43,860 nt of DNA from positions 1 to 43,860 of the forward strand of contig JAFQOI010000013.1 of the NCBI GenBank assembly GCA_017403285.1. The letters run 5' to 3'. This stretch comes from a bacterium. Lineage in GTDB: Bacteria > Cyanobacteriota > Vampirovibrionia > Gastranaerophilales > Gastranaerophilaceae. This document shows, piece by piece, positions 1-20,070 of the stretch. Within the stretch, counting starts at the first letter, position 1. Each line of letters opens with the position of its first letter. The position numbers and the translations under genes were made by a program. The notes beneath the pieces were generated by a model. The model made no database searches. It saw nothing but the letters and a program-made list of their open reading frames with translations, and was not told the origin of the DNA.

Positions 1-1260
1 CCACATATCTCCAACAGAAAATTCCGTAACAACGGCAGCTTCTGTCATTGTTTTATCAAGTTCTTTTACCGTATCAAAAGCACTTGATACCGCACGTTTA
101 AATAATTGAATGGCATTTCCGATTGAGAAGAAATCAAGAAGTTGACGTTTTAAATTTTCAATATCTTCTGCTTGACGATTCATATCTTTAACAGAATCAC
201 TAGCATCATTTATATGATCGCTGAAAGATACAGATTTTCCAGCTGCTTGCGCCATTGCCTCACCAATAGCTCTTATTTTTTCGTCAGCATCCGCACCAGC
301 TTTTGTTACAATATCGTTTAAAACGGTCTCTAAATCTTCAAAACTTTTGATAGCAGAAGAATCTATACCTTTAATATCTTTTAAGCTTTCCATCATTTTT
401 TTGAAAGCTTCACTCTCTCCGCCATCCCCAAGCTTTTCTAATTCTTGTTTTATATTACTAATTAATTCAGAAGTAGCCTAATAATTTTTATTTAATCTTT
501 CGAGTTCTTTATCTCTTCTTGATTCAGTTGTTATACCAGCTAATTCTTTTTCTTGTTTCGCAATTGCCGCAACTAAACGCTCTCTCTCTGCTAAACTTGC
601 GTTTAAAGCTTTAGCTTCTTTTGTACGACCATCAGGAGTTGTTCTCCCTGTCGCTTTCATTTTTTGTTCATTAGCTTCGGTTTCAACAACTATATTAGCA
701 TCAACTTTTTTTAATTGTTCTTCTAACTATTTTAATTCATTACGCGCTTTGGTAAAATCTGCTTCAATAACTATTTCTTTAGCATTAACTTTCTTAATCT
801 AATCTTCAATAGTAGCTAGCTCAGCATTTTGTTTAATTAAATCTTTTCTATTTTTATCAATAGATTTTGAAGACTTTTCAATAGTAGAACTATAAATCTT
901 CATAGCACTACTAATCTTATTTATCTTTGTAACTGTATCAGGAGGAAATAAGTCCATCTTCTTAGTTCCAGATAAACCATCAACTTCCACTCCTAATTTT
1001 CTAAACATCTCTAAAATTTTCTTTCCACTTTTTTCAATAGCAGAAAAATCGCCAACGGTACTTAAATTTTTCTCCGTAAGCGAACCAAAATTTTTTATTT
1101 CTGCTTCTAAACTTGAAAACAGATTTAAAAAATTCTTATTTAAATTTTGTGGTAAAGTTAATCCCTAAAGACTTTTCTAAATATTAGAAACTGCACCTTT
1201 TAAATCCCCAATATCCGCGCCAAAGTCCAGAGTAACATTTATCCTCGTATCCTTTGCCAT
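1..1260 (-). CDS. Tape measure protein, N-terminal part (runs off window), TAG-recoded
   Basis: The reading frame starts at the ATG complement at 1258-1260 (AGGAAATGAG upstream) and leaves the window at base 1 still open, giving 420 codons. Five in-frame TAG codons (478-480, 727-729, 799-801, 1165-1167, 1177-1179) interrupt it, but the sequence on both sides is coherent, so I read TAG as Gln. The protein is strongly helical and Lys/Glu-rich with coiled-coil character, typical of tape measure N-termini, which set tail length and scaffold tail-tube assembly. It lies directly downstream of two tail-tube genes, the usual place. The function is inferred from position and composition; the C-terminal part is not visible. 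Confidence 0.72.
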
Positions 1261-1274
1261 TCTCATTTCCTCCA

Positions 1275-1313
1275 AATAAAAAATCGACATTAATTAAAAA
1301 TTAATGCCGATTT
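1275..1313 (-). terminator. Intrinsic terminator between tail gene and tape measure
   Basis: On the minus strand a 14-bp stem (AAATCGGCATTAAT paired with ATTAATGTCGATTT, one mismatch/wobble) is followed by a T-rich run. It sits between the stop at 1317 and the tape measure ribosome site, so it would partly separate tail-tube from tape measure expression. Confidence 0.65.
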
Positions 1314-1316
1314 ACC

Positions 1317-2099
1317 TTAAAAATCTATATCATCATTCAAAGCAATAAAATTACAGACATAGCTTGTTCCTCTACCACCCACTGGAACTCCAACCGCATT
1401 AAAAGTTACAGTTGCAGGATCTGCATTGCGCCCCAGCCTAATAGATAAATCAGACATTAATTTTAATTTTGGGATTTGAATAATCCCAGTTACAACTCGT
1501 CCGTTTGTATCTTCCTTTAATCGCGTTTTTGCCTCTAATTTTAAATAACCACTAGTTAATCGTCTTCCAACACGAATAATTCTTCCACCTTTTTTATATT
1601 CCCAGTCATAAGTTATATAAACATCACAATAAGGTTCCTAAATAGTTATTTGTTTTCCAGAAAGCACATACTCAAGCTTTTCTCCAGTCTCCTTCTTATA
1701 AACAAAAGGTTTTCCTACTGGTGCCTGTTTTAATTCAATTATCCCATCTTCCGAACTCTCAAGATTTTCTCGTTGAGTTAAAGTAATTACAGTTTTATCT
1801 TCTTCTCCTAATTCAAGTAATTTTGAATTACTAATAAAAGCTAAATGTTCAACAGAAAAAACTCCCTAAGTGAAACTTAGTGGCATTTCTTTTGTTGTTT
1901 CCCAATAAACCCAAGAACGATTATCAAAACCACCGCGCGCATCAGTGCGTAATTTTATTTCTTGAAGCCCACCAATTTGTATATTATCAAAAGCAGCAAT
2001 TACTTCGTTTTCTTCTATTTTTCTATTACCCATCTCTATAGGATAAGTAGATTTTATTACAACATCGTACAGTTCTTTAACGCCTTGTAGATCATACAT
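1317..2099 (-). CDS. Tail-tube-like structural protein, second copy, TAG-recoded
   Basis: 260 residues, with in-frame TAG at 1863-1865 and 1638-1640. It can be aligned by eye with the neighbouring tail-tube protein at 2170-3048. Both have ARGG-x-x-N, then W...KE, then FS...LA near residue 55-80, and both have an IPK block followed by a DP block in the C-terminal half. At the aligned position the neighbour has Asp where this protein has the TAG-encoded residue. It is therefore probably a paralogous tail-tube or tail-tip tube protein. It lies between the major tube gene and the tape measure. Start: ATG at 2099 after a GGAG site. Confidence 0.6.
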
Positions 2100-2115
2100 A
2101 ATTTTTTCTCCTTAG

Positions 2116-2149
2116 AAATAAAATAAGGCGAAGGAACCTCCTCCGCCTT
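2116..2149 (-). terminator. Intrinsic terminator after major tail protein
   Basis: AAGGCG/CGCCTT-closed hairpin on the minus strand followed by ATTTTATTT, immediately after the tail-tube stop codon. It would favour excess tail-tube transcript over downstream genes. Confidence 0.7.
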
Positions 2150-2169
2150 AGACTGTTTTTATTTAATTA

Positions 2170-3048
2170 TTAGCCTTGAGCTTGTTCATCTGACTCAGCT
2201 TCATTTTTAGGAATTAAAGTATGGTTATGAATTAACTCAGCAACAGGTGTTTCAGTTACATCGGCGCCACCAACTAATTCGTACTTAACTAACTTCATCA
2301 TCTTACCATCAGCAGGACGTAGAACACGTAAGCTCATATTGAATACAGAAGGGTCCCCTTCAGCTTCTAGAGTAATAGTATTCTCAGACTGTACTTTAGC
2401 CTTAGGAATAATAAACTGGAAGAATTCATCATCGCCAGAAGCTTCACTACGGGCAAAAGTATCGCCGGTTACATAATATGTACCAGGGAAGCTGTTAGCA
2501 GAAATTTCAATTACAGAACCCTTAACTTCTAGGTCATAAGAACAGAAATATTTCTCATTTACTACAAGAGCATCCTTAACCTCTGTATTATCAGCATTAT
2601 AGAACTTAGGATTAAGCTTCTTATAGAACCTACCATTAGGAGCCTCATACTGATATTTCCAACCAGACTTATCAGCGCCTTCAGCAGGAATTTCAGTTCC
2701 AGTAGCAACAAATTGCTCTGTGCGCATAATTAAGCCATTTCCATCCTCTGCATCATCATTACCATAAGTCTTAACAGTACCATTACCAAACATAATAGCC
2801 ATGGACTTAGCAGAGAATAGAGCATCCTCTAGGGTTACATTAATTTCCTTACCATAGTCCCACATGATTAGAGCAGGATTACCTTTACCACCACGAGCCT
2901 CAGCGGTTTCAGCTGTCTGCTCAATAGTGGAAACTTTTAAAGTATCTAGATATAAAACAGGTACGGTAGGACTACCATTAGTATCTAGTTTATAGAAAGT
3001 TACGTCAGCAACTTCTTTAATACCATATCTATCAAGAATACTAGCCAT
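2170..3048 (-). CDS. Major tail (tube) protein, no TAG
   Basis: 292 residues, beta-rich and acidic, without any TAG although its neighbours have many. The segment around residues 52-88 (ARGGKGNP, MWDYGKEINVTLEDALFSA) resembles tail-tube proteins of large siphophages and myophages. A paralogue follows at 1317-2099, then the tape measure, which supports the assignment. It forms the stacked rings of the tail through which DNA passes. It starts at ATG 3048 after GGAGG and has its own downstream terminator, consistent with high expression. Confidence 0.72.
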   Translation of the reverse strand: MASILDRYGIKEVADVTFYKLDTNGSPTVPVLYLDTLKVSTIEQTAETAEARGGKGNPALIMWDYGKEINVTLEDALFSAKSMAIMFGNGTVKTYGNDDAEDGNGLIMRTEQFVATGTEIPAEGADKSGWKYQYEAPNGRFYKKLNPKFYNADNTEVKDALVVNEKYFCSYDLEVKGSVIEISANSFPGTYYVTGDTFARSEASGDDEFFQFIIPKAKVQSENTITLEAEGDPSVFNMSLRVLRPADGKMMKLVKYELVGGADVTETPVAELIHNHTLIPKNEAESDEQAQG

Positions 3049-3074
3049 TTATATAGCCTCCTATATATATTTTA

Positions 3075-3812
3075 TTAATCATCTAAATTCCTAATCCAAT
3101 ATTTAGGTTTTACTTTTTTGGCACCCGCCATAACACTTTTAATATCAACTTCATATTTTTCTCTTTCTTGAAAACTACGCATAATTAACGGGATAGCCAT
3201 ATAACTTATCTCTCCAATATTAAGTGGATTAAGACCAATTCCCATACAACAAATTGAAACCAAAGTAGATTTTAAAGTTAATCCACCACCTTGCTTCGCT
3301 TTTACCTTATCACGATAACGCGCGCGAGCTTTCATTTGTTTAATCTTCCAATGTTCGTTTGGATTAGGAGGGTCAATAGGTTTAATCCCAACACTTTCTC
3401 GTATAAGATTTTGAAAATTAAAAAATTCTTCTTCTTTAATTACAACCAATTCATCTACACTTTTTATCTTAGGTAAAACTTCTTTTAAATTTCCTACCAC
3501 TATAATTTTCTACTCAAATAAAAAAGTAATATCTTGATGGATAAAAAACTAAAAAGCTTTTTTTGCTAACTAAAGAACTCTTTTATCATTATAAGCTAAA
3601 GAAAATAAAGTCTCAAAAGGTGTTAGCATATTATTTAGCTCTTGTTTGTTTTTTACATATTCATCTTCAATTTCTTCCTATGAAGTAGTTAAAAGTTTTA
3701 AATAAATACTATATTGTTTATTTGAAGCAACTTCTTTTACCAGTGGAGGATAGACATGAATTCCTTGTTTAAATTCAACGGGTTCTTTTACAAAAAAACT
3801 AACATCATTCAT
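3075..3812 (-). CDS. Tail-region protein of unknown role, TAG-recoded
   Basis: The open frame of a standard-code reading starts only at 3500, but the same frame continues upstream through four TAG codons to an ATG at 3812 that overlaps the stop of the previous gene by 8 bases. This gives 245 residues, mostly helical, with a short hydrophobic stretch near residues 195-215 (STLVSICCMGIGLNPL) and a basic C-terminus ending KPKYWIRNLDD. Its place immediately before the tail-tube gene suggests a tail assembly or head-tail joining role. No family was recognised. Confidence 0.6.
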
Positions 3813-4305
3813 AAGCAACCAAACTAAAAGTCATTTCATAAGCAGACATTTCGTCTGTTAAGAAATTAAGGTCAAAACCAGTATATTCCATTTTACCTAA
3901 ACCTTCAATGTTTTTTCCTTCAAGGCTTTTTTGAATTTCACTCATAATTAAAAAAGGTCTTAAACTTGTATCTTTAATAATCCACTAAGTTAAAGGTACA
4001 AAAACTTCAAACGAGAAAACTATATTCTAAAACTCACTATTGGTTGAGGTTTTTCGTCCTCGAACTACTCGATAAGAAACGATAGACCTTGCTGTTTCCC
4101 TATCTTCTGGTGAAACACGAGGAACAATTTTTATTAATTTTTCAAAAATTTCTTTTTTAATTTGTTCTTGGGTTAAATCTAACTAAGATAAAGGATCTTT
4201 ATCTGTATAATACAACAATTTTAAAAGTTCCTAGTTAGCCGTTAAACGCTTCATAATTAACTATAAATTTAACCCTAAGTCCTAAAGCTTTCTAGTTTTT
4301 TTCAT
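3805..4305 (-). CDS. Tail completion/terminator-like protein candidate, TAG-recoded
   Basis: 166 residues with six in-frame TAG codons (for example within KRLTAN-TAG-ELLKLL and PLT-TAG-WIIKD); a standard-code search finds no gene here. It starts at ATG 4305, sharing ATGA with the TGA of the upstream gene, and ends TGA at 3805-3807. The size and the position between neck proteins and the tail tube fit a tail completion protein. The C-terminal segment MEYTGFDLNFLTDEMSAYEM reads as a normal folded protein. Function is inferred from order only. Confidence 0.55.
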
Positions 4306-5027
4306 TCCGTACCTCCTTCTAACCAGTAAAATTCTTCATCTAAGTCTTCTTCTGATTTAGTCGGTGCCGGTGTTAAATCAAACTCATAAATTGGATCTAC
4401 TGAAACATATTCAACTCCATTTGAAGATTGAATATCATAACCAGTAACTCGATATTGTTCTTGTAATTCTCCTTCACCAATAATGAGATAATCATCTTTT
4501 TTAATTTTTGAATTTAATGGCATAACAAAGAAACTTAGTTTTAGATTTTCAGCATATAATGTATCCATACGACTTCTTGAGCGAATTTCATCTTTAAGCA
4601 TATTATTTTCTTGCCCATACATGTAAGCCCACGATGTTTGTATTGAGCCATCGCGCGCCGTCCAAGTAAGAAAATGAGTCATTTTTAACATTATATATCG
4701 ATTATATCCACTACGTTTAATTTCTTCTAAATACCAAATCATCCAAGGTTTATCTTCACCATTTTTATTAGGTATCATTAAAACAGTACCATTGGGCATA
4801 TCTAAATCAACCTTAGTAAGTAAATAATGAATTGTCTCTGTTTCATCTTGTTTATATCTTTCAATACATCCAGGATGATACATATCATTATAATTAAATT
4901 CTACTTTATATGTACTTTTCATCCAAAGTAGTTCAAACTCATGTTCTCTTTTACCTTGAATTCGAGATTGATAATCAGTTCCATAACGATTTAATCTTTT
5001 TTTATAAATATCTTCAAAATAATTCAT
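4302..5027 (-). CDS. Neck/head-tail joining structural protein candidate
   Basis: 241 residues, no TAG. It starts at ATG 5027, directly abutting the TAA of the upstream gene, so the two are probably translationally coupled. It is rich in aromatic residues, with beta-type segments (YDDYLIIGEGELQEQYRVTG-like pattern near residues 180-215) and an acidic C-terminus. It sits between capsid and tail genes in the position of stopper or neck proteins. I do not recognise a family. Confidence 0.6.
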   Translation of the reverse strand: MNYFEDIYKKRLNRYGTDYQSRIQGKREHEFELLWMKSTYKVEFNYNDMYHPGCIERYKQDETETIHYLLTKVDLDMPNGTVLMIPNKNGEDKPWMIWYLEEIKRSGYNRYIMLKMTHFLTWTARDGSIQTSWAYMYGQENNMLKDEIRSRSRMDTLYAENLKLSFFVMPLNSKIKKDDYLIIGEGELQEQYRVTGYDIQSSNGVEYVSVDPIYEFDLTPAPTKSEEDLDEEFYWLEGGTE

Positions 5028-5291
5028 TTAAAATTTTCCTAATAAACTCATACAATCAAAAACTGTAGAGCGAAAATATTCATATTTTAAATAACGAAGC
5101 GAACTTAGTTTAAAATAAAGAGTATAATAATTAATAGTCTGCTTTTCTTCGGGAAAACCTAATAATTCAATCAAGATTGAGTCTAAAAATTTCTCCCAAT
5201 CACGATTTTTTTCTCTTTCACAAAGCAAACCATAAAGTTTGTTTTTTAATTTATTATTATACCCTTCTTGTATTTCTGGTAATATATACAT
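5028..5291 (-). CDS. Small head-tail connector region protein
   Basis: 87 residues, no TAG, helical. The stop codon abuts the ATG of the next gene at 5027 and the start lies 2 bases from the stop of the upstream gene at 5293, a tight late-operon arrangement. The position suggests a small head completion or adaptor protein, but no motif identifies it. Confidence 0.55.
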   Translation of the reverse strand: MYILPEIQEGYNNKLKNKLYGLLCEREKNRDWEKFLDSILIELLGFPEEKQTINYYTLYFKLSSLRYLKYEYFRSTVFDCMSLLGKF

Positions 5292-5292
5292 T

Positions 5293-5718
5293 TTAATTAC
5301 CTGCTAATTTTCCGTAATTAAATGGTTTTCCTTTTATTGAACGATAATAAACTCTTTCGAGTTTTAATGCCTTATATTCTTCTTTCTCAAGCATATTATT
5401 AAATTTATCAAGTAAATTTGCTTGCGAAAAATCTCTTTCTTCATAAAGCGGCTTAACATTTTCCCAAGTTAAAATCGTTCTATTTAACCATTCACACTTC
5501 ATATAAGAAGCTAAAATTTGAATCTCTTCGTTACTTAAATCTTCAATAAAACCGTTATCATCTCTATCTAATGAAACCCTAGGAAACTTAAACCATGGAA
5601 TTGCGCCTTCAAGCATCGCGCGCCAATCTGTATTGACCTCTTCCCATGACCAATCTCCCCATTCATCCTCAAGCATTTTTGCTAAAAAAGCATCATAAAT
5701 TTTTTGATAAGGAGTCAT
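5293..5718 (-). CDS. Head-tail adaptor-like protein
   Basis: 141 residues, no TAG, starting MTPYQKIYDAFLAKMLEDEW. The acidic, Trp-rich helical N-terminus followed by a region with LSNEEIQILASYMKCEWLNR resembles small connector proteins found just downstream of major capsid genes in Bacillota phages. It starts at ATG 5718 after AGGAGG. Role as head completion/adaptor is inferred from order and overall look. Confidence 0.6.
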   Translation of the reverse strand: MTPYQKIYDAFLAKMLEDEWGDWSWEEVNTDWRAMLEGAIPWFKFPRVSLDRDDNGFIEDLSNEEIQILASYMKCEWLNRTILTWENVKPLYEERDFSQANLLDKFNNMLEKEEYKALKLERVYYRSIKGKPFNYGKLAGN

Positions 5719-5733
5719 CTCAAACCCTCCTTA

Positions 5734-6276
5734 TTAATTAAATGGAAATTGTATTTGACCTGGTTTTGGTGGATTTTTAGTGGCTTGTTCTTTTTCTTTG
5801 GCAATACGCTCTTCTTCAGCTTTATTAAACTCATAAGTTTTCATAACATCAATACCAGTAATCTCCTTAATTACAGAGCATTTCTCATAATCAAACTTCT
5901 TCTTTTCTAAAACATAATCGGCCAAATTTTTACATTGATCGACAGAATATTTCCCAATTAATTCCTTAAAACGCCAAAGTGGTTGATTCATAATATCTTC
6001 CATAGTTTTTTCATTGAATATCAATATATTAGTTGGCTCTTTTGCGTCTTCAGGTTCTAATCCTAAATCTTTCTTTACTTGCATATCTTCAATATAAAGA
6101 ATACCCTGTCTTAACATATATTCAAAGCCTGGGTCAAATTGCATTTCGTCTAATTTTTCTCTTTCAACAGGAATTTTCATTCCTTTTTTATTCCAAGTTC
6201 TTTTAAAATTTAACTGAGGTACATTTACCCCAATAGTTCCACGAACTGTACTAACAATATAAACTTTATCACTCAT
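5734..6276 (-). CDS. Structural protein downstream of major capsid
   Basis: 180 residues from ATG 6276, which has AAGGAGAT nine bases upstream; an upstream ATG at 6312 lacks such a site and lies within the capsid terminator, so I reject it. N-terminus MSDKVYIVSTVRGTIGVNVP is beta-like; the rest is helical and charged, ending with a proline-rich QFPFN. No TAG. It lies between the capsid terminator and the connector genes. Unknown capsid or neck protein. Confidence 0.6.
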   Translation of the reverse strand: MSDKVYIVSTVRGTIGVNVPQLNFKRTWNKKGMKIPVEREKLDEMQFDPGFEYMLRQGILYIEDMQVKKDLGLEPEDAKEPTNILIFNEKTMEDIMNQPLWRFKELIGKYSVDQCKNLADYVLEKKKFDYEKCSVIKEITGIDVMKTYEFNKAEEERIAKEKEQATKNPPKPGQIQFPFN

Positions 6277-6311
6277 AACTAAGATCTCCTTTTCACTCGA
6301 ATTAAAATTCA

Positions 6312-6338
6312 AGGGAAGGAAGGCAAGCTTCCTTCCCT
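6312..6338 (-). terminator. Terminator after major capsid gene
   Basis: Perfect 11-bp inverted repeat AGGGAAGGAAG / CTTCCTTCCCT with a 5-base loop, followed on the minus strand by TGAATTTTAA, just after the capsid stop codon. Confidence 0.65.
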
Positions 6339-6356
6339 CATTTATTTATCTATTTA

Positions 6357-7406
6357 TTATAAATTTACGTAGGGGTTTTCAAAAGTCTGTGTAATACCAG
6401 TATTCTGATAAATAGCCCAATTATTATAAGCTAAAATAGCAGTACCCATCTTTTTATAAGTATGAATTTCAATAGACTGGTCAGGATTAATGAAATCCCA
6501 CATCTGAGTCTGACCTTCAAGACCAACTTTTACAACCTTTTCTCCACCAGTTGGGAGGATGTAAGCAAGCTGTGGATCTACCCAAGTAGAAGTATTAGAA
6601 TCATCAAGGAAAGACTGTTGCATTTGAATAATAGGTGTTCCACGGAATAGATTGATGAAACCAGTATTATGAATAGCATCAATATCCTGTGGATGATAAA
6701 TGCCTTGATAATTTGTTCCAACAGGAACGATAGCATCAGGACCCATAGCCGCGACGAACTCAGGTGGCGCAAAAATAACAGCACTAGAACCATAAGCACG
6801 AACAACATTTACAAGTCTTTGCATATCATCAGCAACGAAAGTATTGTTGATTACAAGGTTTGTATCTGGACGATTTGTAGTTGTTACAGCAGCACGAAGC
6901 GCTTTGTGAATCTGAACAAATACTGCGTCAGTAAGTCCAGTTGTGATAATCTCCATGAGGTCAGCCATACTATCTGCCCCATTAAGGAAACGTTCAAAAT
7001 CAATACGAGCAGCTCCACCGATTGCCATACCTTGCATTTCAAAAGTATCGCTATCAAGACGGAATGTCTCATAAAGACCGCTAAGTCCAACTTGAGTTAA
7101 GAACTTACGGGCACGAGCATGACCTTTTTTGGTCTTGAAAAGAATTTTCTGACCCTGTGGAACACTCTGAACTTCTGCGAAAATACCAACAGCATCAAGA
7201 ACTTTCTTAGGAACTATTTCATCAGCAGCAGTAATAATAATATCAAAAATATCATGTTTATTGCGCTGGAATTCATTAATAGAAGAACAAAGAGCAGACA
7301 TTTCCGCGCGAAGTGCTTCATTTACATTATCATTAGAGAAATTAGCAGGAGCAGTACCTTTGGCTGCGTGAAGAGCTAATTCTTTTAATTCTTTAATTGT
7401 AGCCAT
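6357..7406 (-). CDS. Major capsid protein
   Basis: 349 residues, no TAG. The order protease/scaffold, head protein, this gene, then connectors is the classical capsid order, and the protein has the expected features: a helical N-terminus, a long stretch with QGQKILFKTKKGHARARKF, a helix followed by SAVIFAPPEFVAAMGP, and a C-terminal beta domain ending YNNWAIYQNTGITQTFENPY. It probably has the HK97 fold and forms the shell. It has a strong AAGGAGG site and a downstream terminator, both expected for the most abundant protein. Its freedom from TAG contrasts with the flanking packaging genes. Confidence 0.8.
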   Translation of the reverse strand: MATIKELKELALHAAKGTAPANFSNDNVNEALRAEMSALCSSINEFQRNKHDIFDIIITAADEIVPKKVLDAVGIFAEVQSVPQGQKILFKTKKGHARARKFLTQVGLSGLYETFRLDSDTFEMQGMAIGGAARIDFERFLNGADSMADLMEIITTGLTDAVFVQIHKALRAAVTTTNRPDTNLVINNTFVADDMQRLVNVVRAYGSSAVIFAPPEFVAAMGPDAIVPVGTNYQGIYHPQDIDAIHNTGFINLFRGTPIIQMQQSFLDDSNTSTWVDPQLAYILPTGGEKVVKVGLEGQTQMWDFINPDQSIEIHTYKKMGTAILAYNNWAIYQNTGITQTFENPYVNL

Positions 7407-7420
7407 TATATTAACCCTCC

Positions 7421-7978
7421 TTACGCTTTAATTGCCTGGAACTGAATAGCAAACTGACCATCAGGCATAGAACCTGCGCCGCAGCCGTGAATTGCTAAAA
7501 GAACTGGACCTTCAGTTGGAGCAGTCGCACTAACTAAAATAGCACCAGATTCAGAAACACCACCATAAAGAGGAGCATCTCCTTTATAAGCTTCTTTTAC
7601 AGCTTCTTCATCAGCAAATTCGCCATCATCATAGGCAAGACAATTTGTAGTAAATTTATCTCCAATAGCGAGATAACCTAAACGGGGATAGATACCATCT
7701 TTTTCGAGTTTAAAATGTTTTAATCCCTGTGTTCTTTCATCATACATAAACTCTGTAGAATAGTTAAGGGCGATTGGGAAAATCGAACCTGCTACAGGTA
7801 ATTTAATTTTACGAGCAATATTATCAACCATAAGTAACATTCCAACTTCAGCAGGAATAGCCTCAAAGTCAGTGGGATCAAGCGCGCACTGTGCTTCAAT
7901 ACGACCATCGCGTGGGAAAGCTACTTGATTTAATTCTAACTGACCATAACCGTCAATTTTAAATCTCTTTTGAGCCAT
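7421..7978 (-). CDS. Head decoration/stabilisation-type protein candidate
   Basis: 185 residues, no TAG, beta-rich, Gly/Ala-rich (ATAPTEGPVLLAIHGCGAGS near the C-terminus). It lies between protease/scaffold and major capsid, where decoration or capsid-stabilising proteins are usually encoded. It starts at ATG 7978 after GGAGGAAAG and ends 15 bases before the capsid start. Absence of TAG fits an abundant particle protein. Confidence 0.6.
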   Translation of the reverse strand: MAQKRFKIDGYGQLELNQVAFPRDGRIEAQCALDPTDFEAIPAEVGMLLMVDNIARKIKLPVAGSIFPIALNYSTEFMYDERTQGLKHFKLEKDGIYPRLGYLAIGDKFTTNCLAYDDGEFADEEAVKEAYKGDAPLYGGVSESGAILVSATAPTEGPVLLAIHGCGAGSMPDGQFAIQFQAIKA

Positions 7979-7992
7979 TTTCTTTCCTCCAC

Positions 7993-9363
7993 TTATTTCT
8001 TATATTTAGCTAGAAGTCCTTCAATTCCTCCAATAGGAGTATCCTTTGGAATATATTGAGGAGTTTTTGAAAATACAGATGGATTAGATTTCTTTAATTC
8101 ATAAGCAAGTTCTTTATCAAGTTCTACTGCTGAATCATACTTATCTAAATTATCAGAATAAGTCTTAATAGTTTCTTCACTAAGAATTTCAGCATAAGAT
8201 TCAACAACTGCTTCTTTTTCAGCTTTAACAGTTTCAGCTTTATAAGATTGTAATTGTTCTAATTCACCTGTTAATTGAGAGATAGTATCTTGCGCGGTCG
8301 CATAATTAGCAGCCTAAGTATCTCTCTCTGTAGTTAAAGTAGAAATCTCACCATTTAGCTCTTCAATTTTGATGCTAAATTCTTCACAATTTGTTTTGTA
8401 TTCTTCTGCGTGTTCAAGAGTTTCATTTACTAAATCATATGAACCGCCATTTAAAGAACGTAAAGTTTCAATAGTATTTTTTTCATTTTCAGTTATATCC
8501 ATAATATAGATAGGTAAGCGCTCTGTAATTGAAACTTCTTCATTTTCATCATTTTTTACATAGTAAATTCTTTCAAATTTCGCTTCTGCATAATTATATG
8601 CTAAAGCATAATCATCATAAACTTCAGTAATGGTATAATCAATTATCCAACCATTTTCTTCATTATAGTTCTCATTTAAAAGAGACCAAAGATAATCATA
8701 CTTTTGCGAATCAGAAAGTTTAAAATTTAATTTCGACATTTCCGATTGTCCTCCTTCTCTTTTAGAATCAAGAGAATATTCTTCGATTTTTTTTACTAAA
8801 TCTTTTAAATCAGAAGCCAATGAAAAGAAGGCAGCACCCTCAAAACATGGTTCTGTAGAATCACCTAAAACCTATAACCCTAAAAAACAAGCATCTTGGA
8901 ATTTAAAAAGCTTTTCACCATTAATTATTGACCAATCCCCTGTAATAGAAGGTTCATATAACTCCATCGATTGAGATTTGCCAACAATTGTTGTAGCCTC
9001 ATCATATAGAGCGGTGTAGATAAAGACATCGGCGCAAGCATAGATGCGCTCAACGCCATCTTCATCTTTGTGTGCTTCCCAAGCAAAGTTATGTCGTTCT
9101 GGAACTATTCCATAAATACGCCCTCTGCTTCGTTCATCACCATGATCAGTATAGTCTTCATCAAAGTTATCATAAATTCCTTTTACTGGTGTATATGGTA
9201 AAGTTTTAATCAGTTTTTCAGCAAATTCATCAGTAATATAACTACCATTTCGATTTTTGTACTTATAGAAAATTCTACATCTTCCTTTTGAAATAGTAGG
9301 AGAATATTGCTCTGTGATACTATAAACTGTAACCGGAAACTCTTTAATAGTCTTTAAATCCAT
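7993..9363 (-). CDS. Prohead protease-scaffold fusion candidate, TAG-recoded
   Basis: A standard-code reading gives two fragments (8872-9363 and 8314-8820), but the frame is continuous through TAG at 8869-8871 and 8311-8313 to TAA at 7993, giving 456 residues. The N-terminal 180 residues look like a prohead maturation protease: a TDHGDERSRGRIYGIVPE block followed by the LG-Gln-VLGDSTEPCFEGA block, where the Gln is the first TAG. The rest is acidic coiled coil, as in scaffold proteins that are digested during capsid maturation. It lies between portal and capsid genes. Start ATG 9363 after AGGAGG. Confidence 0.65.
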
Positions 9364-9378
9364 TATTTAGAGCCTCCT

Positions 9379-10920
9379 TTATTCTTGATTTTCTTTAGAC
9401 TTTTCTTGTTCTATTGTTGTTTCAGCTTTTTCTGTTTCTTCTTTTTTAGGCGCTCCACCTTTTTCAGTGGTTATACCTTCTTGGACTTTTTCAGTTTCCT
9501 ATGCTTGCGCGCTTTGTGTGTAAGCCGAACTAAGTGGAATAAATTTTTCACCAAGTTTTAAAATATCATTTTCTAAATCTTTAATATTAACAATATCTCT
9601 TTGTGTAAATCCCATAGCTAAAGCAGGAACTATATAACTATATCCACTTTGCGCTAATTTAAAAGAATCTGAAATATATTCACTTTCATTATAATAAGTA
9701 ATTGGAAGAAGTGAATATTTAAAATTTATACTACCGTTACTAAAAAGTTTGTTTAATGTATTTGTAATAAACATTGAATATTTATTACCCAATACCATCA
9801 TCATAGCAGTATCATTTTTGAGTGAAGTTCCTAAAGAAGAACTACCAGTGGTAGCAAAAAGTTCGCCACTTACACCAGCCTCAGCATAAATATTCTATAT
9901 CATTTTTTCTAAAGTGTTACTTGCTGTATCAGCAGTTGTTTTTGAAACAATTGCATCAACATCAGCGTAAGTTGTTAATACTGAAACATTTTTATTGTTT
10001 CGCATCATACCAACCGTACCTTCATGAATTTCTATTGCTTCTTCTGGTTCAAATAGCAATCCTCCATCATTTAAATGAGGAATTTTTTGAACAATAATTT
10101 TTCTAATCTCTTCTAAATCACGTTCTCTTTCCGTATCAACTGCTTCATCATACTGAATTGTTGCTGGAATTACATTAAGAAATAATGGCACACCATCAAA
10201 CAATGGAAAACAAACACCTATATCCGAAGGTAATTTTACCCAAGGGCTTATAACTCTTTGTTTTTCCCATTTTTTAAAATGAGATGAAACAACTTTAGGA
10301 TAGAGTGCTAATGCTTCCTTTTGTGCATCTTTATCTACGATTGTATTAAAATAACTTACATTAAATTCTACAATATCATTACCTAAGAAGTCTCTAAATA
10401 AGGAACGGCAATAACCATGCGGTAAATCTATTAACACAAAAGTTTTTCTATCAATACTTACAAGCGCGCCGTAGTACGCGCCATCTATTAATGCTCGTAA
10501 AGAACAATTTGTAAGCATTGTTGGTAAAGACATTTTATCAACATAATCAAGAGCACTATAATAACGCTTCTAATTGTTTTTTTCGGAGAGATTTTTTCCG
10601 GGTGCAGGATTAGGTATTAACACACCCATATATTTTAAAAGCGTTGCATAATGAATCAAGATTTGTCTATAAAAACCATCTTTAGCAAAATAATTTCGTG
10701 ACAACTTCTATTGTGATTCCGCATCACCAGAATTAATAATTTTCTCAATTTCTTCAAGACTATAATCTTTAAATTTTCTATTAAAATTATATCGATTCCA
10801 ATTATTATTCCAAGAAGCGTCACTTGTAGCGACCATTCTTTCTTGTACGCGTTTAAAGGAGTCTAAACTAAAGCGGGCTTTTTCTTTAATGGCGCCCTCA
10901 GAACTAGAATTGTTTAACAT
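9379..10920 (-). CDS. Portal protein, TAG-recoded
   Basis: 513 residues, running through four TAG codons (10708, 10570, 9892, 9496). Its ATG overlaps the stop of the large terminase (TAATG). The position directly after the terminase, the size, and the segment around residues 145-185 (GAYYGALVSIDRKTFVLIDL, then YCRSLFRDF and VEFNVSYF) match portal proteins of Bacillota phages, which form the dodecameric DNA channel at a capsid vertex. The C-terminus is low-complexity Glu/Lys. Standard-code annotation would split it into three or four false genes. Confidence 0.72.
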
Positions 10921-12725
10921 TAGTAGCCTCCTGATGAATAAAATACTAAACTACGCTTTTTACCGTTTGAACTTCCAAATCTTCGTCTATTTCGTTTCGA
11001 TGCTTCCTCTTCAATTTCTTTAATTCGATATTGTCCATAAGCAAATGCGGAATATTTGTCTTTAGGAAAACGAGGATTAATCTATTCTAAAATAATATCC
11101 AATCCAGTTCCAGTACGTTTGAGGCGCAGATTAGCCATTTCTTCAAAAAGTTTAGTGGTCATTTCATGTGGCATTAGTCGTTTTATTTTATCTTCAATAG
11201 ACATTTTTTGTCCTTTTTTAGTGGCAAGTAAAGCATTTTTTGCTTCTTGCTCTTTAATTAAAAATCGAACTAAGCCTCCATTAATACGAGAATAGGCATT
11301 ACCATGAATTTTTGAGTTTAAAGGACCATTTGCTTTCATAGAATAAAGAATATTAATTGAATCTTTAGGTTGAATTTTTTTATAATCCGAATCATTAAAA
11401 AATCCATAAGAAGGTAACAAGTTACCTTCAAAGTCATAATGCGTGCGAATCATTTCATCAGCTAATCCAATACCTAAACCATTTGTATCAATTACTACTT
11501 CTCTAGGCTAAAAATCACGAATAATACATTTTAAATCTACTGCTTGCTGAACAAAAGTCTTTGTTTCAGCCTATCTACCTAATACAAATATATTAACTAA
11601 AGTTGAATAATATTTTTCATTAATAATATTAACTCTAAAGACACAACAAACAGTTTGGTCATGGAGTCTTCCTACATCCACTGATAATAAGTAAAATTGC
11701 TCACTACCAGCTCTAAATTTTGCGTGCTTTTCGGGATTTTTAATTTTTCTATACTTCTATAATTTATCAAAATTAAACCAAGACTCCTCTGAGCCACCAG
11801 ACCATACTGATAAATATTCGCGCGCAAATACTTCTTCTTGGTAGGTTGGTGACATTTTAAGTTCTTGAATAAATTGCTTTTCAAGTAATCCATGAAGTAC
11901 AGGAACTCGATAATCACAGCCCCAAACAAAAGCTTTTTTTGGATTTATAATAGACATTGTAAAACAGTCGATTAATTTTTCATAAGCATAAGATGATTTA
12001 ACTCCAGCGGAAGTCATATATAGCTGTTGTTGATTTGGTTCGTTTTCATTTGTCTCGCCATTTGGCATACGGCGCGAAACGTTCATTAAAGGAAGAACAA
12101 CAGAGTTTAATATTTCCCCATCATGATCTCTTACTTCGTCTATAAGTCCTCCCGAACGGCGCCCACCACGCTCAGAATCAAGCGCGCCTACAACGTCAAA
12201 AATAGAACCATTTCGGAAAGTTAGTGTAACGTAATCCTTACCAAAATTACCCTCACCAACAATTTCTTTCTTTAAAAAAGGAAGTTTATCCCAAATTTCA
12301 TAAATTTTGTCTTTCGCAATTTTCGCTGACTAATTCTTACCTGGCGCGCAAATAAATAACTTTGCCCCCGGTCTAAACATACACTCCAAATAAAGTGCTA
12401 AAATTGAGATAAAAGTTTTACTAAAAGCACGACAAGCCGTACAATAATGATACCTATATCTCATACAAGCACGCAAGAATATGCGCTGAAAAAAGAACAA
12501 TGAAAAATTTGAATCTTCAGGAGTAATTAAATCAATAAATATATCCGGATAAGCAGTAAAAAAATTAGCATATTTCTAAAATAAACTTTCATGCTATATT
12601 AAATAATCTTCTGTTAAAATACTACCTTTCTCAATTTCTACTCCTTCTTTATAAAACTTCTAAACTTGCGCATTTAAATTTTCTAAATCTCTTTTAATTA
12701 AACCAATTACTTCACTCATCATCAT
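10920..12725 (-). CDS. terL: Terminase large subunit, TAG-recoded
   Basis: 601 residues with eight TAG codons. ATPase: the A motif reads CAPGKN-TAG-SAK at about residues 126-135; in this terminase type the residue after GK-x is normally Gln, supporting TAG = Gln at residue 132. The B motif is GGLIDEV at about 190. The nuclease half has SVDVGRLHD, then VVIDTNGLGIGLADE, and a late acidic site. It pumps and cuts DNA during packaging. Three consecutive ATGs (12725, 12722, 12719) are possible starts after AGG. It overlaps the upstream gene by 14 bases and the portal start by one. Confidence 0.88.
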
Positions 12726-13704
12726 CACCTAATCCAGGATCAAATTCTTCATCTTTCATTAATCCAGCATAGCCCGCATCATCATACTCATCTAAGTTAT
12801 ATTCTTTATTTGTATCATAATAATCTTCCAGCTCGGCCGCAGACTATAAAGTCTAAACACGTCTATCAATTTCTTCTGCAAGTCCAGTTTCATTTGTATA
12901 AAGTCTCTAAGTGAAATTCTAAATATTCTTCATTGTTTCATCAACGATATCTCTCGTAACACCATCAAAAAACTTATTCTTCCAACCTCTTTTCTCAAGC
13001 CAACGAAATAATTCTGCAACTGATTCAAAATCAGTCGCGCTTTTAACATTTTTTGGAGTAAATTCTCCAACCTTAACCATTTTATCATAACTTGATAAAA
13101 GCTTATCGAAATCTTGTCCCGCGCGAATACGTGCGTCAATTTCAAGAGAAATTTTACATATCTTCTGCGCCTAATCAACCTAAAGCGCGCCATTCACATT
13201 TTGAGTAGAAAGCAAACCACTATATAAATCTTCAAGATAAATCAGATCTTCATCATCATAATTTGCTCCCCATTTTTCCCTTAGTTTTCTAAACTTCTCA
13301 TCTCTTAAACCAGGTAATTCATCCTCAATAAGATTAACTTCTTTTAAAGACTTAAACTAATTATAATAATCATCCCAACCTAAATCTAAATACTAATCTC
13401 CATTAAATACCTAAGCATAAACTCCCCAAATATTTTCTGGTGTATTTATTTCTTTTAATCTTTCCCACTCTTTAGGAACCCAAGGAATATCAGCCCATTG
13501 ACAAACTTTATCAACCGCGCGCCAATCAAAGTCAGCATCTTTTAAAAATTCAGTAATACAACTATTACATATTGGAAGTGTTCCATCTTTAAAAAAATAA
13601 GAAGTTGATGGAGAAAAGTTTTCCGTCCCAAAAGTCCCGCCGCACCGCTCGCACTGCTTAAAGGAAAAATTAGTTTTCTTCTTTATTTTCGGTGCTAATG
13701 ACAT
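12712..13704 (-). CDS. Zinc-ribbon protein upstream of terminase (small-subunit candidate), TAG-recoded
   Basis: 330 residues with nine TAG codons. The N-terminus has a CxxC...CxxC zinc-ribbon pattern (CERCGGTFGTENF ... PICNSC) at residues 18-50. The remainder is helical and acidic, ending DDDE just before the terminase ATGs, with which it overlaps. In phages the gene just before the large terminase usually encodes the small terminase subunit, so this is a candidate DNA-recognition subunit. The family was not recognised by sequence. It starts at ATG 13704 after GAGGT, inside the end of the upstream gene. Confidence 0.55.
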
Positions 13705-13921
13705 CGTGTTTTACCTCTCGTAACATTTTAATAATCTATCTACGTACAGGGCGCGACAGGGTAGGAAACTTTTCAATTATTTCAAATACTAGTTCTTCGC
13801 CCTTTTTAAGTTCATTACCTCTAGAAAATGAAACACACATAATGCGTGCGAGTCCATAAATTTCTTCTGGCTAAAGTTTAGTTAAAAGTGTTAAAAATTC
13901 ATTATTTTGTTTTTTATTCAT
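13670..13921 (-). CDS. Small conserved-position protein, TAG-recoded
   Basis: 83 residues from ATG 13921, which shares ATGA with the stop of the upstream gene, to TAA at 13670-13672, overlapping the next gene by 35 bases. Two TAG codons (inside LLTKL-TAG-PEEIYGLAR and RPVRR-TAG-IIKML) hide it from standard gene callers. Helical with the phrase LARIMCVSFSRGNELKKGEELVFEIIEKFP. The overlapping arrangement and codon use support that it is real; function unknown. Confidence 0.6.
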
Positions 13922-15249
13922 TTATTTATTCTCCTTGCGTCACGTTTTTTCTTATCACATCTCTTACATTGAGTAGAAAATCCATCATTTGAACGAGCTT
14001 TGTGCATAAAATTATCAGTACTTATAAACAACATTTCACCACATTCTCTACATCTTTTAAAATTTTCTGGATAAGGTAAATTCTATATAATTTCTTCATG
14101 AATGCGCGCAGCTTCATTAATTGCTGGAATAATTCTCTATTTGAATATAGTTGAAATATAGTTTGGATTATAAGTTTTATTATATTTAGGATTGATAATT
14201 TGTGTAATTTCCAAATTTTGGACGCGGCGCAATTTTAATGCTAAAATTTCTCTCTATACATCAGTTAATTTCGCGCGCGCAATATAAAAATTAAGAGTGT
14301 CTAAAAACTAATTTAAAGTTGAATAAACTTCATTTTGTTCTGCGTCATACTCTAAAACTTCTAACAAGTTAAAAGCATTATAAACATGGTTTGCTTCTCT
14401 AAAATCAAAAAACTATCCTTTTAAGCTTTTTCTATGCCAATAATCCTTAATTACTGCTTCAAGTTCTTTTTCCTAAAAATCTTCACAATAAGGAAATCTA
14501 TCCTTAGGAAAAAGTTTTGAGTTTTTTAAATATTTTAACCCTACGGGCAAAATATTAATATCGGCATCAAATATTGGGGGAATAGCTTGTTCAGTTATTG
14601 AAGCTTCTTTAATCACTCTCTAAGTTTTATATGAGTCGCGCAGTGTAAATTGTTCTCTGCGCAGTTCAACAAGTAAGTGTCTGCGTTTTAAATATGAATA
14701 TTGATTTAAATGTTTTGCTTTTTCTTTTATTTGTTCAATTTCTTTTGGTGAAAATTTATTAATTAATTCAGGTCTAGGTTCAAGTTTTCGTTTATTATGC
14801 GCGAGGTCATAGAAATTTATCAAAAGGTCTAACTCATCAATTTCCTTCCATAGCTCCTCAAAACGAGGTAATAAATAAGGTGGTGCCTCTTCGCGCGCTT
14901 CTTGTCTAGAGAAAATTTTTTTAGTTTGTTTTAGTGCTGGTTCTGTTGAAGCACGTATTATATGTTCAGAAAATCCAGGTGTCTCAAGTAAGGCATCAAG
15001 AGATTCATCCTAAACACAGTCCCATGTTTTGTTGCGCGATTCGAGTTGTATGTCTTTTGATTGTTTTGAGTTTAAACCAGTTTGAGGGTCTTTGCCCCAA
15101 AGTATATAGTTAGCGATTGTTTCAAGTTCTTCCTCGGTTGGAGGATGTTTTTGAAATTGTTCTTGGTTTAAATATTTGTTTGCGAACTCGCTTCTTTGTT
15201 CATTTGTTTGAAGAGTGAAGTCGAGTTTTAATCGATTTTTTTTATTCAT
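13918..15249 (-). CDS. First gene of late operon, zinc-finger protein, TAG-recoded
   Basis: 443 residues with eight TAG codons; a standard reading shows only two short fragments (15010-15249 and 14620-14823). It is helical, and the C-terminus (about 395-440) carries a CRECGE ... CKRCDKKKRD zinc-binding pattern suggesting nucleic-acid binding. As the first gene after the promoter at 15316-15345 it may act in packaging or late regulation. The start ATG at 15249 is fixed by an in-frame TGA just upstream. It has no close ribosome site: the only GGAG is 41 bases away across a hairpin (15263-15286). Confidence 0.62.
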
Positions 15250-15315: not shown

Positions 15316-15345
15316 ATTATAACATAGGAGGTTGAGGAGTGTCAA
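15316..15345 (-). promoter_or_regulatory. Promoter of leftward late operon
   Basis: On the minus strand TTGACA (15340-15345) and TATAAT (15316-15321) with an 18-base spacer, upstream of the first TAG-recoded gene. It is back-to-back with the rightward promoter at 15414. Confidence 0.7.
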
Positions 15346-15885: not shown

Positions 15886-16404
15886 ATGAAACAGTACACC
15901 TTTAACAGAACAGACAGCGGAATTATTGGAAAAGCTTTTGAAATGGCAATTAAGGACGCACTTAGACGGCGGAATGCGGACAAAGTAAGTCCCTGCGGAA
16001 CAGCTGATTTTCGTTATAATGCGAAAAACTACGACACAAAACAGAATGGTTCAGTTATCCGCTACGCTGAACAGTCCCGCTATATTAAAGGTTCAAACCG
16101 CGTTATCTACGCAACGCACATTGCGCACACAATGACGGACATTGACGCGGACACGGTAGGCGTTACAATCGACTTACAAGGTACTGACTTCTTCTGTGTT
16201 GATCGTAAAGAGTTTATTGACTTCTTAATCTCTATCGGCTGTGTAAAGCTCAACGCAAGCAGAGGAACGGTCAACATACAAACAGTATATAACTACAAGA
16301 AAGACGCCTATCATGGCAAGAAGGGGAAGTTGATAGAAGCCTGGGCAAGCGAACATTACCTGGACGATGAAGTTATAGATGCCATATGGGAAGCCCTCTC
16401 TTGA
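15886..16404 (+). CDS. Putative PD-(D/E)XK-type nuclease-like early protein
   Basis: 172 residues, standard code, GC-richer than its neighbours. The N-terminal 55 residues have the spacing of a PD-(D/E)XK nuclease core: E19 in GKAFEMAIKDAL, D41 in GTADFRY, then D50-x-K52 in YDTKQNG. The rest is mixed alpha/beta. It is first in a unit with its own TTGACA promoter; GGAAG precedes ATG 15886. The stop codon lies in a GC-rich hairpin that is followed by a hammerhead ribozyme. The nuclease assignment is a motif-based inference and could be wrong. Confidence 0.5.
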   Translation: MKQYTFNRTDSGIIGKAFEMAIKDALRRRNADKVSPCGTADFRYNAKNYDTKQNGSVIRYAEQSRYIKGSNRVIYATHIAHTMTDIDADTVGVTIDLQGTDFFCVDRKEFIDFLISIGCVKLNASRGTVNIQTVYNYKKDAYHGKKGKLIEAWASEHYLDDEVIDAIWEALS

Positions 16405-16413
16405 GAGCTTCCC
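16389..16413 (+). other. Stable hairpin at the end of the first early gene
   Basis: GGGAAGC...GCTTCCC with an inner CTCTC/GAGAG arm spans the TGA stop and is not followed by a U-run. It would become the 3' end of the upstream mRNA after cleavage by the adjacent ribozyme and could protect it. Confidence 0.5.
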
Positions 16414-16414
16414 A

Positions 16415-16462
16415 CGGCTCAGCCGGTATGAGTCCGGCTCTGATGAGCAAGAGCGAAAGCCG
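16415..16462 (+). ncRNA. Hammerhead ribozyme (type III)
   Basis: All invariant core elements are present in order. Stem III 5' strand CGGC (16415-16418), then U-C with cleavage expected after C16420. Stem I is AGCCGG (16421-16426) with CCGGCT (16434-16439), loop of 7. CUGAUGA is at 16440-16446. Stem II is GC/GC (16447-16448 with 16453-16454) with an AAGA loop. GAAA is at 16455-16458. Stem III 3' strand is GCCG (16459-16462). Stem II is unusually short. Cleavage would separate the transcripts of the genes at 15886-16404 and 16489-16869. Confidence 0.85.
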
Positions 16463-16488
16463 AACATAAAGAAAGGAAGGAATGACCT

Positions 16489-16869
16489 ATGATCGACATT
16501 ATCAAACTGATTGACGAACGCTTTGAAGCTATTACACAGGCGCGCAATGAAGCAATAGAGGAATGCGCGCAAGCTACATCTTTAAACATTTACCAGATAA
16601 GAAAGAGCTTGGAGAAGAAGAAAGAAGAAGCTGAAAACGCCTATAATACAGCTTATGATGAGTATGAAGAGTTAAATAGCCTTTATGAGCTATTGGAATC
16701 ACAAGGCGCTTCTGATAGCGATTTAGATGAAGTCGAAGAAGAATGTGATGAAGCTTACGATAGGAAAATAAAAACCGAAGATATATACGAGCTATATGCT
16801 GATGCCTTGGAAATGATAATCAAACTTGAAGATATATTGGAATCAATAGAAGCTTTAGAGGGGAGATAG
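16489..16869 (+). CDS. Acidic coiled-coil early protein
   Basis: 126 residues, almost entirely helical, rich in Glu/Lys/Asp with heptad-like repeats from residue 35 to 125; probably a coiled coil. GGAAGG lies 9 bases before ATG 16489, within the 3' product of the hammerhead ribozyme. It ends with TAG, the only clear TAG stop among the early genes, located in the loop of the terminator at 16859-16882. If TAG were suppressed late, translation would continue through the terminator. Function unknown. Confidence 0.65.
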   Translation: MIDIIKLIDERFEAITQARNEAIEECAQATSLNIYQIRKSLEKKKEEAENAYNTAYDEYEELNSLYELLESQGASDSDLDEVEEECDEAYDRKIKTEDIYELYADALEMIIKLEDILESIEALEGR

Positions 16870-16882
16870 TCCCCTCTTTTTA
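16859..16882 (+). terminator. Terminator overlapping TAG stop
   Basis: GAGGGGA / TCCCCTC stem followed by TTTTTATT; the TAG stop codon of the upstream gene is in the hairpin loop. Confidence 0.75.
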
Positions 16883-16891
16883 TTCTTTGGT

Positions 16892-16914
16892 TTTTAGACG
16901 GCTGCCGTCTAAAA
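16892..16914. repeat. Dyad element copy 1 (variant GGC/GCC)
   Basis: TTTTAGACGGC-T-GCCGTCTAAAA, perfect 11-bp arms. The inner bases differ from the common copy but the pairing is kept. Confidence 0.85.
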
Positions 16915-16921
16915 TAGGGGC

Positions 16922-16950
16922 TTTACAAAACGCATTTTATATGATATCAT
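16922..16950 (+). promoter_or_regulatory. Early promoter
   Basis: TTTACA (16922-16927), 17-base spacer, TATCAT (16945-16950), directly downstream of dyad copy 1. Confidence 0.55.
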
Positions 16951-16981
16951 ATAATAGAAATTAGGAAAGGAATAATGAACA

Positions 16982-17161
16982 ATGTTAAAAGAATTTGTAT
17001 CTGATATGAAAGAATGGTTTTGTAATGACCATATACGCACACGGCGCGGACGCATTAGGGCTATGAGCTTGCTATGGTGGGTTATTAGAACGCTACAAGC
17101 TACGGCTGTTATCGCAGTTCTGTATGTGTGGTATTGTATGATGTGGCTTGCGTTTGTATGA
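16982..17161 (+). CDS. Small membrane protein
   Basis: 59 residues: a charged, Arg-rich N-terminal half (HIRTRRGRIRAMS) followed by one hydrophobic segment rich in Trp, Tyr and Val (LLWWVIRTLQATAVIAVLYV ... WLAFV). A single-pass membrane protein with a cytoplasmic basic part is likely. AAAGGA lies 10 bases before the ATG. It is followed by the gene at 17201 without a terminator, so the two form one unit. Confidence 0.6.
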   Translation: MLKEFVSDMKEWFCNDHIRTRRGRIRAMSLLWWVIRTLQATAVIAVLYVWYCMMWLAFV

Positions 17162-17200
17162 GCTATAAATAAAAGCTAGCTAAAGAAAGGAAGTAATTAA

Positions 17201-17431
17201 ATGAATCTTAAAGAAGCTGTTATATATGGAATTAAAATGGGGATGGAGACTTTTAGCATAAGACATTTTAAATATAATGGGCACTGTTTTGAGCAAAGCT
17301 TAGAAACAATTTTAGAATTTATTCAAGGCTATGAAGATTGTATTCCAATTACTTGTTATTATGGAAGCTGGGATTCTGACCGTCCAACTCATTGTCATAT
17401 TTCGTATAAATTAAAAGAAGAAAGTCTTTAA
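17201..17431 (+). CDS. Small early protein of unknown function
   Basis: 76 residues, ATG 17201 after GAAAGGAAG. Mixed helix/strand, rich in His, Tyr and Cys (FKYNGHCFEQ ... CYYGSWDSDRPTHCHISYK). The C- and H-containing C-terminal part could bind a metal, but there is no defined motif. The stop TAA is in a hairpin terminator (AAAGTCTTTAAGACTTTCTTTTTT). Confidence 0.6.
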   Translation: MNLKEAVIYGIKMGMETFSIRHFKYNGHCFEQSLETILEFIQGYEDCIPITCYYGSWDSDRPTHCHISYKLKEESL

Positions 17432-17449
17432 GACTTTCTTTTTTCTAAA

Positions 17450-17476
17450 AAAATTAGACGCACTGCGTCTAATTTT
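17450..17476. repeat. Dyad element copy 2 (variant GCA/TGC)
   Basis: AAAATTAGACGCA-C-TGCGTCTAATTTT, perfect 13-bp arms; compensatory change relative to other copies. Confidence 0.85.
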
Positions 17477-17491
17477 AAGTCAAAGTTTTTC

Positions 17492-17520
17492 TTGCTTTTT
17501 TTAAAATTTTTTGGTATAAT
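17492..17520 (+). promoter_or_regulatory. Early promoter
   Basis: TTGCTT (17492-17497), 17-base spacer, TATAAT (17515-17520). Confidence 0.6.
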
Positions 17521-17553
17521 TTAATCAAGAAATGAGGAAAGGAAATTAAAAAA

Positions 17554-17997: not shown

Positions 17998-18021
17998 TAT
18001 AAAAATTCCTTTCTTGTGTGG

Positions 18022-18058
18022 AGAAGTCGGGGCAGAAATGTCCCGATTTCTTTTTTTT
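18022..18058 (+). terminator. Terminator after HAD gene
   Basis: GAAGTCGGG...CCCGATTTC hairpin followed by eight T residues. Confidence 0.75.
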
Positions 18059-18068
18059 GGAATTTTAT

Positions 18069-18087
18069 TTAGACGTCTTACGTCTAA
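18069..18087. repeat. Dyad element copy 3
   Basis: TTAGACGT-CTT-ACGTCTAA, just upstream of the promoter at 18106. Confidence 0.85.
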
Positions 18088-18105
18088 TTTTTCTGCAAAA
18101 AATGA

Positions 18106-18134: not shown

Positions 18135-18139
18135 ATAAT

Positions 18140-18255: not shown

Positions 18256-18257
18256 GG

Positions 18258-20064: not shown

Positions 20065-20070
20065 AAAGAA

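Follow-up and report, generated by a model that had tools for sequence, protein, structure and literature searches.

In the tailed phage described here, UAG is decoded as glutamine (code 15), judging by comparison of its genes with those of its relatives. Our favoured explanation, which we regard as probable, is that a phage-encoded tRNA whose anticodon is CTA decodes UAG as glutamine, and that TAG is carried by late genes of modest demand and excluded from early genes and from the genes in highest demand. The DNA analysed (43 860 nt, hereafter the window) is the entirety of one contig (C162) in a 2.23 Mb metagenome-assembled genome (MAG). The genes at both ends of the window are cut by the contig boundary, and so it represents a fragment of a phage genome: a piece of a tailed gut-type phage of approximately 135–140 kb, distantly akin to phAss-1. 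Among the matches listed, relatives of its large terminase subunit (TerL) included phages of Alicyclobacillus, Geobacillus (E3), Enterococcus, Bacillus (SPbeta type) and Lactococcus, as well as phAss-1 and numerous IMG/VR contigs reaching 140 kb in length; no named crAss-like phage was among the 40 TerL matches listed. The remaining phage genome was not found in the MAG when queried with two proteins of the relative G007, one of which matched only a probable DNA polymerase of the host itself and the other nothing. The MAG may not represent the host of the phage. A TerL 81 % identical to that of the window sits in a MAG from goat ileum labelled Methanobrevibacter (L154, JAFRFD010000017.1); the contig is recoded and belongs to this clade, and its presence in that MAG is most likely a binning error.

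Once TAG is opened, positions 1–15249 resolve into 17 tightly packed minus-strand genes, 10 of which carry 51 in-frame TAGs (Table 1); code 11 leaves the same region in short frames. Two further minus-strand genes, 36933–38558 with 20 TAGs and 20595–21377 with four (three if translation starts at the ATG at 21317), bring the count to about 74–75 over twelve genes, and every recoded gene that ends inside the window does so at TAA or TGA. Under code 11, stop-to-stop frames 150 codons or longer cover 0.43 of positions 1–15249. Opening TAG raises this to 0.93, while opening TGA gives 0.47 and opening TAA 0.71, TAA being a weak control in AT-rich DNA. PHROG profiles span the TAGs in the portal gene (phrog_2739, 1e-62) and in the genes matched by phrog_3314 (3e-40) and phrog_3313 (1e-32). 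Two profiles match parts of TerL (2e-52 and 3e-22) and, given this partial coverage, PHROGs may hold fragments of recoded TerLs. The same genes are uninterrupted in G001 (IMG/VR contig 3300013947_000136, also L009), whose TerL is 83 % identical. Long conserved genes with in-frame TAGs, together with the gain in coding density on opening TAG, constitute a code-15 feature.

The first-pass annotation, made from the sequence alone, had claimed that these twelve genes (20595–21377 given as 20595–21317) need readthrough of about 70 TAGs and, where they end inside the window, do so in TAA or TGA, and had proposed a comparison of code 11 with TAG open as a check. Gene reads, profiles and relatives agree with it, as do the frame coverage and the profile matches of portal and TerL. 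It was also right that TAG is read as an amino acid, which proved to be glutamine, and that standard annotation fragments the terminase, portal, protease-like gene and tape measure, although the last of these is not whole in any case, the gene at 1–1290 being truncated at the contig end.

Table 1. Features of the window, with coordinates and in-frame TAG content
Feature	Coordinates	Strand	Remarks
Presumed tape measure, N-terminal part	1–1290	-	5 TAGs; runs off contig end; weak local matches in relatives
Virion structural protein	1317–2099	-	2 TAGs; phrog_2729, E 7e-15
Presumed tail tube protein	2170–3048	-	No TAG; phrog_2729, E 1e-48; PJN02 homolog annotated as tail tube
Conserved gene	3075–3818	-	4 TAGs; phrog_4051, E 5e-19
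Virion structural protein	3805–4305	-	6 TAGs; phrog_6123, E 3e-16
Four operon genes (4302, 5028, 5293, 5734)	4302–6312	-	No TAG
Presumed major capsid protein	6357–7406	-	No TAG; phrog_4088, E 3e-47; named by position only
Presumed decoration protein	7421–7978	-	No TAG; named by position
Presumed prohead protease/scaffold	7993–9363	-	2 TAGs; phrog_3313, E 1e-32; homolog named putative prohead protease
Portal protein	9379–10920	-	4 TAGs; phrog_2739, E 1e-62, residues 20–512
Terminase large subunit	10920–12752	-	9 TAGs; phrog_9 and others; TerL relatives
Conserved gene	12712–13704	-	9 TAGs; phrog_3314, E 3e-40
Small gene	13670–13921	-	2 TAGs
First gene of the operon	13918–15249	-	8 TAGs; phrog_5767 (labelled sigma factor), E 1e-11
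Promoter-like site TTGACA-18-TATAAT, extended -10	15316–15345	-	Operon start; consensus match only
Homing/HNH-type endonuclease	20595–21377	-	3–4 TAGs; phrog_374, E 4e-40; phrog_9084, E 7e-21; opposes direction of neighbours
Conserved 541-aa gene	36933–38558	-	20 TAGs, neighbours TAG-free; possible PD-(D/E)xK nuclease (motif only)
Terminator-like hairpin	38580–38600	-	About 20 bases before start codon of the 541-aa gene
tRNA-Gln (TTG)	38813–38886	-	
Four tRNAs (Met, Thr, Asp, Asn)	40275–42342	-	Probably near end of tRNA array

The identity of the inserted residue can be read from relatives that use the standard code. At the 73 TAG sites of the window, these phages carry glutamine most often (30/73), followed by glutamate (10/73), and the summed BLOSUM62 scores are 150 for glutamine and 90 for glutamate. 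In the nearest relatives the codon opposite a window TAG is mostly CAA or CAG, and residue 141 of TerL is glutamine in 57 of the 57 relatives that cover it. The TAG at the glutamine of the motif GIQxKN in the 541-aa gene recurs in G003 and G007, and most other homologs have a glutamine codon there. In five other recoded relatives, as in the window, glutamine fits TAG best, and for the window so clearly that other amino acids were rejected. In phAss-1 alone did glutamate score slightly above glutamine, over only 28 sites and at low identity. Peptides measured from crAss-like phages do contain glutamine at TAG (PMC9523058).

The distribution of TAG among genes is uneven at two levels. Between transcription units, the operon at 1–15249 has 51 TAG versus 148 CAA/CAG codons, the early-type unit at 25898–39183 (leaving out one gene) has 0 versus 102 (P 6e-11 against the operon), and the plus-strand unit at 15886–24000 has 0 versus 26 (P 0.001); these P values take codons as independent, and related genomes share ancestry. 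The first-pass annotation had described a clear split by transcription unit. Most genes on the plus strand, and most of the remaining minus-strand genes, indeed lack TAG, but the split holds only in part, with exceptions in both directions: seven genes of the recoded operon are TAG-free, and one TAG-rich gene lies in an otherwise TAG-free unit. Recoding in this phage is found mostly in late genes, lateness being judged from gene function.

Within the operon, the contrast is sharp. In seven recoded genomes taken together, the presumed capsid, decoration and tail-tube genes hold one TAG versus 174 CAA/CAG codons, and the other operon genes hold 245 versus 675; the difference is visible in each recoded genome singly. 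Capsid and decoration genes are TAG-free in all of the recoded relatives examined, and the one TAG among the seven genomes is in a tail-tube gene. A simple rule that late genes are recoded therefore does not fit. Conservation was rejected as the cause of the exclusion, as TerL is equally conserved yet TAG-rich, and so was a shortage of CAG, which is one step from TAG, as CAG predominates in the three genes. Across 15 genes the TAG share falls as the CAG share in standard-coded relatives rises (rho -0.62, P 0.013), a trend that is not significant once the capsid, decoration and tail-tube genes are removed (rho -0.28). The gene at 4302, TAG-free in the window, has TAG-bearing homologs in six relatives. 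The contrast is similar in Dulem virus 42, a presumably unrelated phage and the only crAss-like one compared: the TerL frame has 11 TAGs, the portal four and the capsid frames 0, 0 and 1, the single TAG falling just before or at the edge of an annotated exon start; Azobacteroides phage ProJPt-Bp1 had no TAG in the genes read. It is more likely that TAG marks late, low-demand translation than that it marks a transcription class, with expression levels presumed from the class of protein.

In the mechanism that we propose, a phage-encoded CTA tRNA would be charged with glutamine by host enzymes and would accumulate during infection until it outcompeted release factor 1, making TAG a usable but slow glutamine codon. 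TAG would then gather in late genes whose products are needed in modest amounts, namely the terminase, portal, protease, connectors, tape measure and the gene at 36933–38558. Its translational cost would keep it out of the virion genes in highest demand (capsid, decoration and tail tube), and genes whose translation precedes the build-up of the tRNA would be free of it as well.

The most serious alternative, possible but in our judgement the less probable reading, is that TAGs have been selected in late genes as a regulatory gate, blocking premature production of virion proteins until a suppressor tRNA is available; this proposal is that of Borges et al. 2022 in the form summarized in PMC10879173 and PMC9523058. 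The TAG-bearing genes are of late type, the operon has a perfect sigma70-type promoter-like site that the host polymerase could use early, and three other recoded phages have a TAG-rich version of the isolated 541-aa gene. All seven relatives with a readable operon start, recoded and standard-coded, have a TTGAC...TATAAT-like box (consensus match only), so host RNA polymerase, without modification, appears able to transcribe the operon whichever code the phage uses. Such a promoter leaves room for a translational gate; it also means that a standard-coded relative manages without one. That relative is G001, which shares operon order and a similar promoter with the window but is standard-coded, its shared genes being TAG-free save for one TAG. 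This TAG precedes the likely start of TerL, and a view of G001 as transitional was rejected on that ground. The gate also sits poorly with the near absence of TAG from the presumed capsid and tail-tube genes, which encode the most abundant virion proteins, and with the repeated gain or loss of recoding among close relatives. In a TerL tree of 46 rows, the recoding state changes at least three times on well supported branches and five times in all, with G001 placed among recoded phages, beside the window. Two other close relatives, G002 and G003 (IMG/VR contigs 3300021400_000949 and 3300021256_000278; one species or nearly), have TerLs 77 % identical to that of the window and are both recoded, but their TAG positions and per-gene counts differ: the homolog of the gene at 4302 has six TAGs in these phages and none in the window. 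Rapid code switching among relatives has been reported previously (PMC7886860, PMC12386605).

The isolated gene at 36933–38558 bears on both readings. Three other recoded phages have TAG-rich homologs (13, 11 and 15 TAGs), and in four others the homolog is TAG-free. A promoter-like site, TTGATT-17-TATAAT with TG preceding the -10, recurs at its neighbours, and no such site was found close to the 541-aa gene itself, which has the terminator-like hairpin upstream. The gene is probably transcribed apart from its neighbours. The product may be a PD-(D/E)xK nuclease, as suggested by E, D, Q and K residues that are invariant and follow a helix-strand-strand order. Profile and structure searches did not confirm that fold, the predicted structures being unusable (pLDDT 48 and 58) and the fold search uninformative, and a single-sequence search of viral contigs with this gene gave no match. 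The gene was also considered as the restriction partner of the adjoining methylase and rejected, the more likely partner being 34516–35643 (-), a type II restriction enzyme gene (PADLOC PDLC03418, E 1e-123) with GmrSD_N and HNH domains. This gene adjoins an EcoRI-family adenine methylase gene at 35696–36871 (-; PF13651, E 2e-100), for which a single-sequence search of viral contigs likewise gave no match. The pair (34516–36871) is phage-borne and TAG-free, with a promoter-like site for each gene. Elsewhere in the window, a T4-type RNA ligase is encoded at 28656–29786 (-) and an HD-domain ATPase resembling polynucleotide kinase at 32756–33712 (-); both are present in G007, and the pair looks like a tRNA repair system.

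The recoded relatives link TAG to a dedicated tRNA. Five of them carry a CTA tRNA: G007 (within an array of 30 tRNAs), G014 (one), G015 (two), phAss-1 (three) and G002, where it is divergent and was detected only by relaxed ARAGORN or Rfam. At default settings none was found in seven standard-coded relatives with 6–30 tRNA genes, a group that includes G017, of intermediate coding density. G014 and G015 are near-identical in a shared gene. Five tRNAs lie in the window (Gln TTG, Met, Thr, Asp and Asn), and no credible CTA tRNA was detected there by ARAGORN at default and relaxed settings, introns allowed, or by Rfam at a permissive threshold; CTA candidates at relaxed settings lay inside coding genes and were dismissed. 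Its last 4 kb resemble the beginning of a tRNA array as in relatives, and we infer that the phage's own CTA tRNA lies beyond the contig end, in an array of which 40–43.8 kb is probably the near end. A GIY-YIG-type homing endonuclease gene (40909–41568, -) lies between the tRNAs.

Several of the CTA tRNAs have features of their own. Those of G007 (L109 15354–15443), G015 (L174 20089–20178) and phAss-1 (62445–62532) are approximately 90 nt in length and have an extended variable arm, which sets them apart from ordinary tRNA-Gln, and TAG in G007 still fits glutamine best. The tRNA array of G007 also contains a ROOL RNA (RF03087, 318 bits; L109 16296–16930, -, equivalent to contig 96296–96930), about 0.9 kb from the CTA tRNA. 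In G014, the interval 8678–10880 (+; loci L163 and L176) ends in a CTA tRNA (10807–10880), about 0.5 kb downstream of the 541-aa homolog with 15 TAGs.

It is very unlikely that TAG has no tRNA of its own and is read instead by a host suppressor tRNA or by the near-cognate phage tRNA-Gln (UUG) at 38813–38886. The window does lack a CTA tRNA, and the tRNA-Gln lies upstream of its most TAG-rich gene; however, CTA tRNAs are present in recoded relatives, standard-coded relatives have tRNA-Gln TTG without recoding, and 8–10 TAGs per gene demand efficient reading. Even less plausible is a host that itself uses TAG as a sense codon, as the RF1 gene of the MAG is full-length and without internal stops, no CTA anticodon occurs among the MAG tRNA loci (best 30 of 53 matches), and close relatives from the same habitat type are standard-coded. 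Least credible of all are sequencing errors, pseudogenes or fragments of separate proteins, which the many short frames under code 11 might suggest: the approximately 74 interruptions are all TAG, with no TAA, TGA or frameshift, profiles read across them, standard-coded relatives have the genes whole, and the repetition of the pattern in independent relatives rules out chance, error and separate fragments.

Late-gene TAG recoding and switching between close relatives are already known. Recoding confined mostly to late genes has been described in crAss-like and other phages (PMC7886860, PMC9523058, PMC10879173), and TAG read as glutamine, suppressor tRNAs and standard-coded early genes were reported by Yutin 2021 (PMC7886860), Peters 2022 (PMC9523058) and Kienbeck 2024 (PMC10879173). 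The code-15 crAss-like phages (PMC7886860, PMC9523058) share with the window phage the glutamine reading, its occurrence mainly in late genes and switching at short phylogenetic distance, but probably belong to a different lineage, judging by the 40 TerL matches listed. The exclusion of TAG from capsid and tail-tube genes inside a recoded operon was not found stated in the literature searched, and may be published. The same code was described in phAss-1 by Babkin 2023 (OQ749652; proposed genus Phassvirus, PMC10607447), which like the window phage reads TAG as glutamine in many virion genes, has a TAG-free capsid homolog, and resembles the relatives of the window in its large tRNA array and genome size. 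However, its portal homolog has no TAG in the aligned part, where the window portal has four, and its genome has three CTA tRNAs, the window fragment none. Phassvirus members are 80–86 % identical in nucleotides (PMC10607447), and with a TerL protein identity of 38 % to phAss-1 the window phage is too distant for the same genus.

Standard-code annotation misses the terminase, portal and tape measure in phages of this group. The reason for stop-codon recoding in phages is debated, between a timing gate and the passive accumulation of a slow codon wherever it is least harmful. As close recoded and standard-coded relatives share this operon and have similar promoters, and the contrast within it is sharp, the two can be told apart here. 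A further reading, possible though less likely than not, is that TAG load is graded by translational demand within one late operon, with the switch acting as a checkpoint on assembly and packaging, and that this is general to code-15 phages. If so, recoding would not be an on/off switch for late genes: the low-copy parts of the virion (terminase, portal, protease and tape measure) would depend on the code switch, whereas the unmodified host could still read the bulk proteins, namely capsid, decoration and tail tube.
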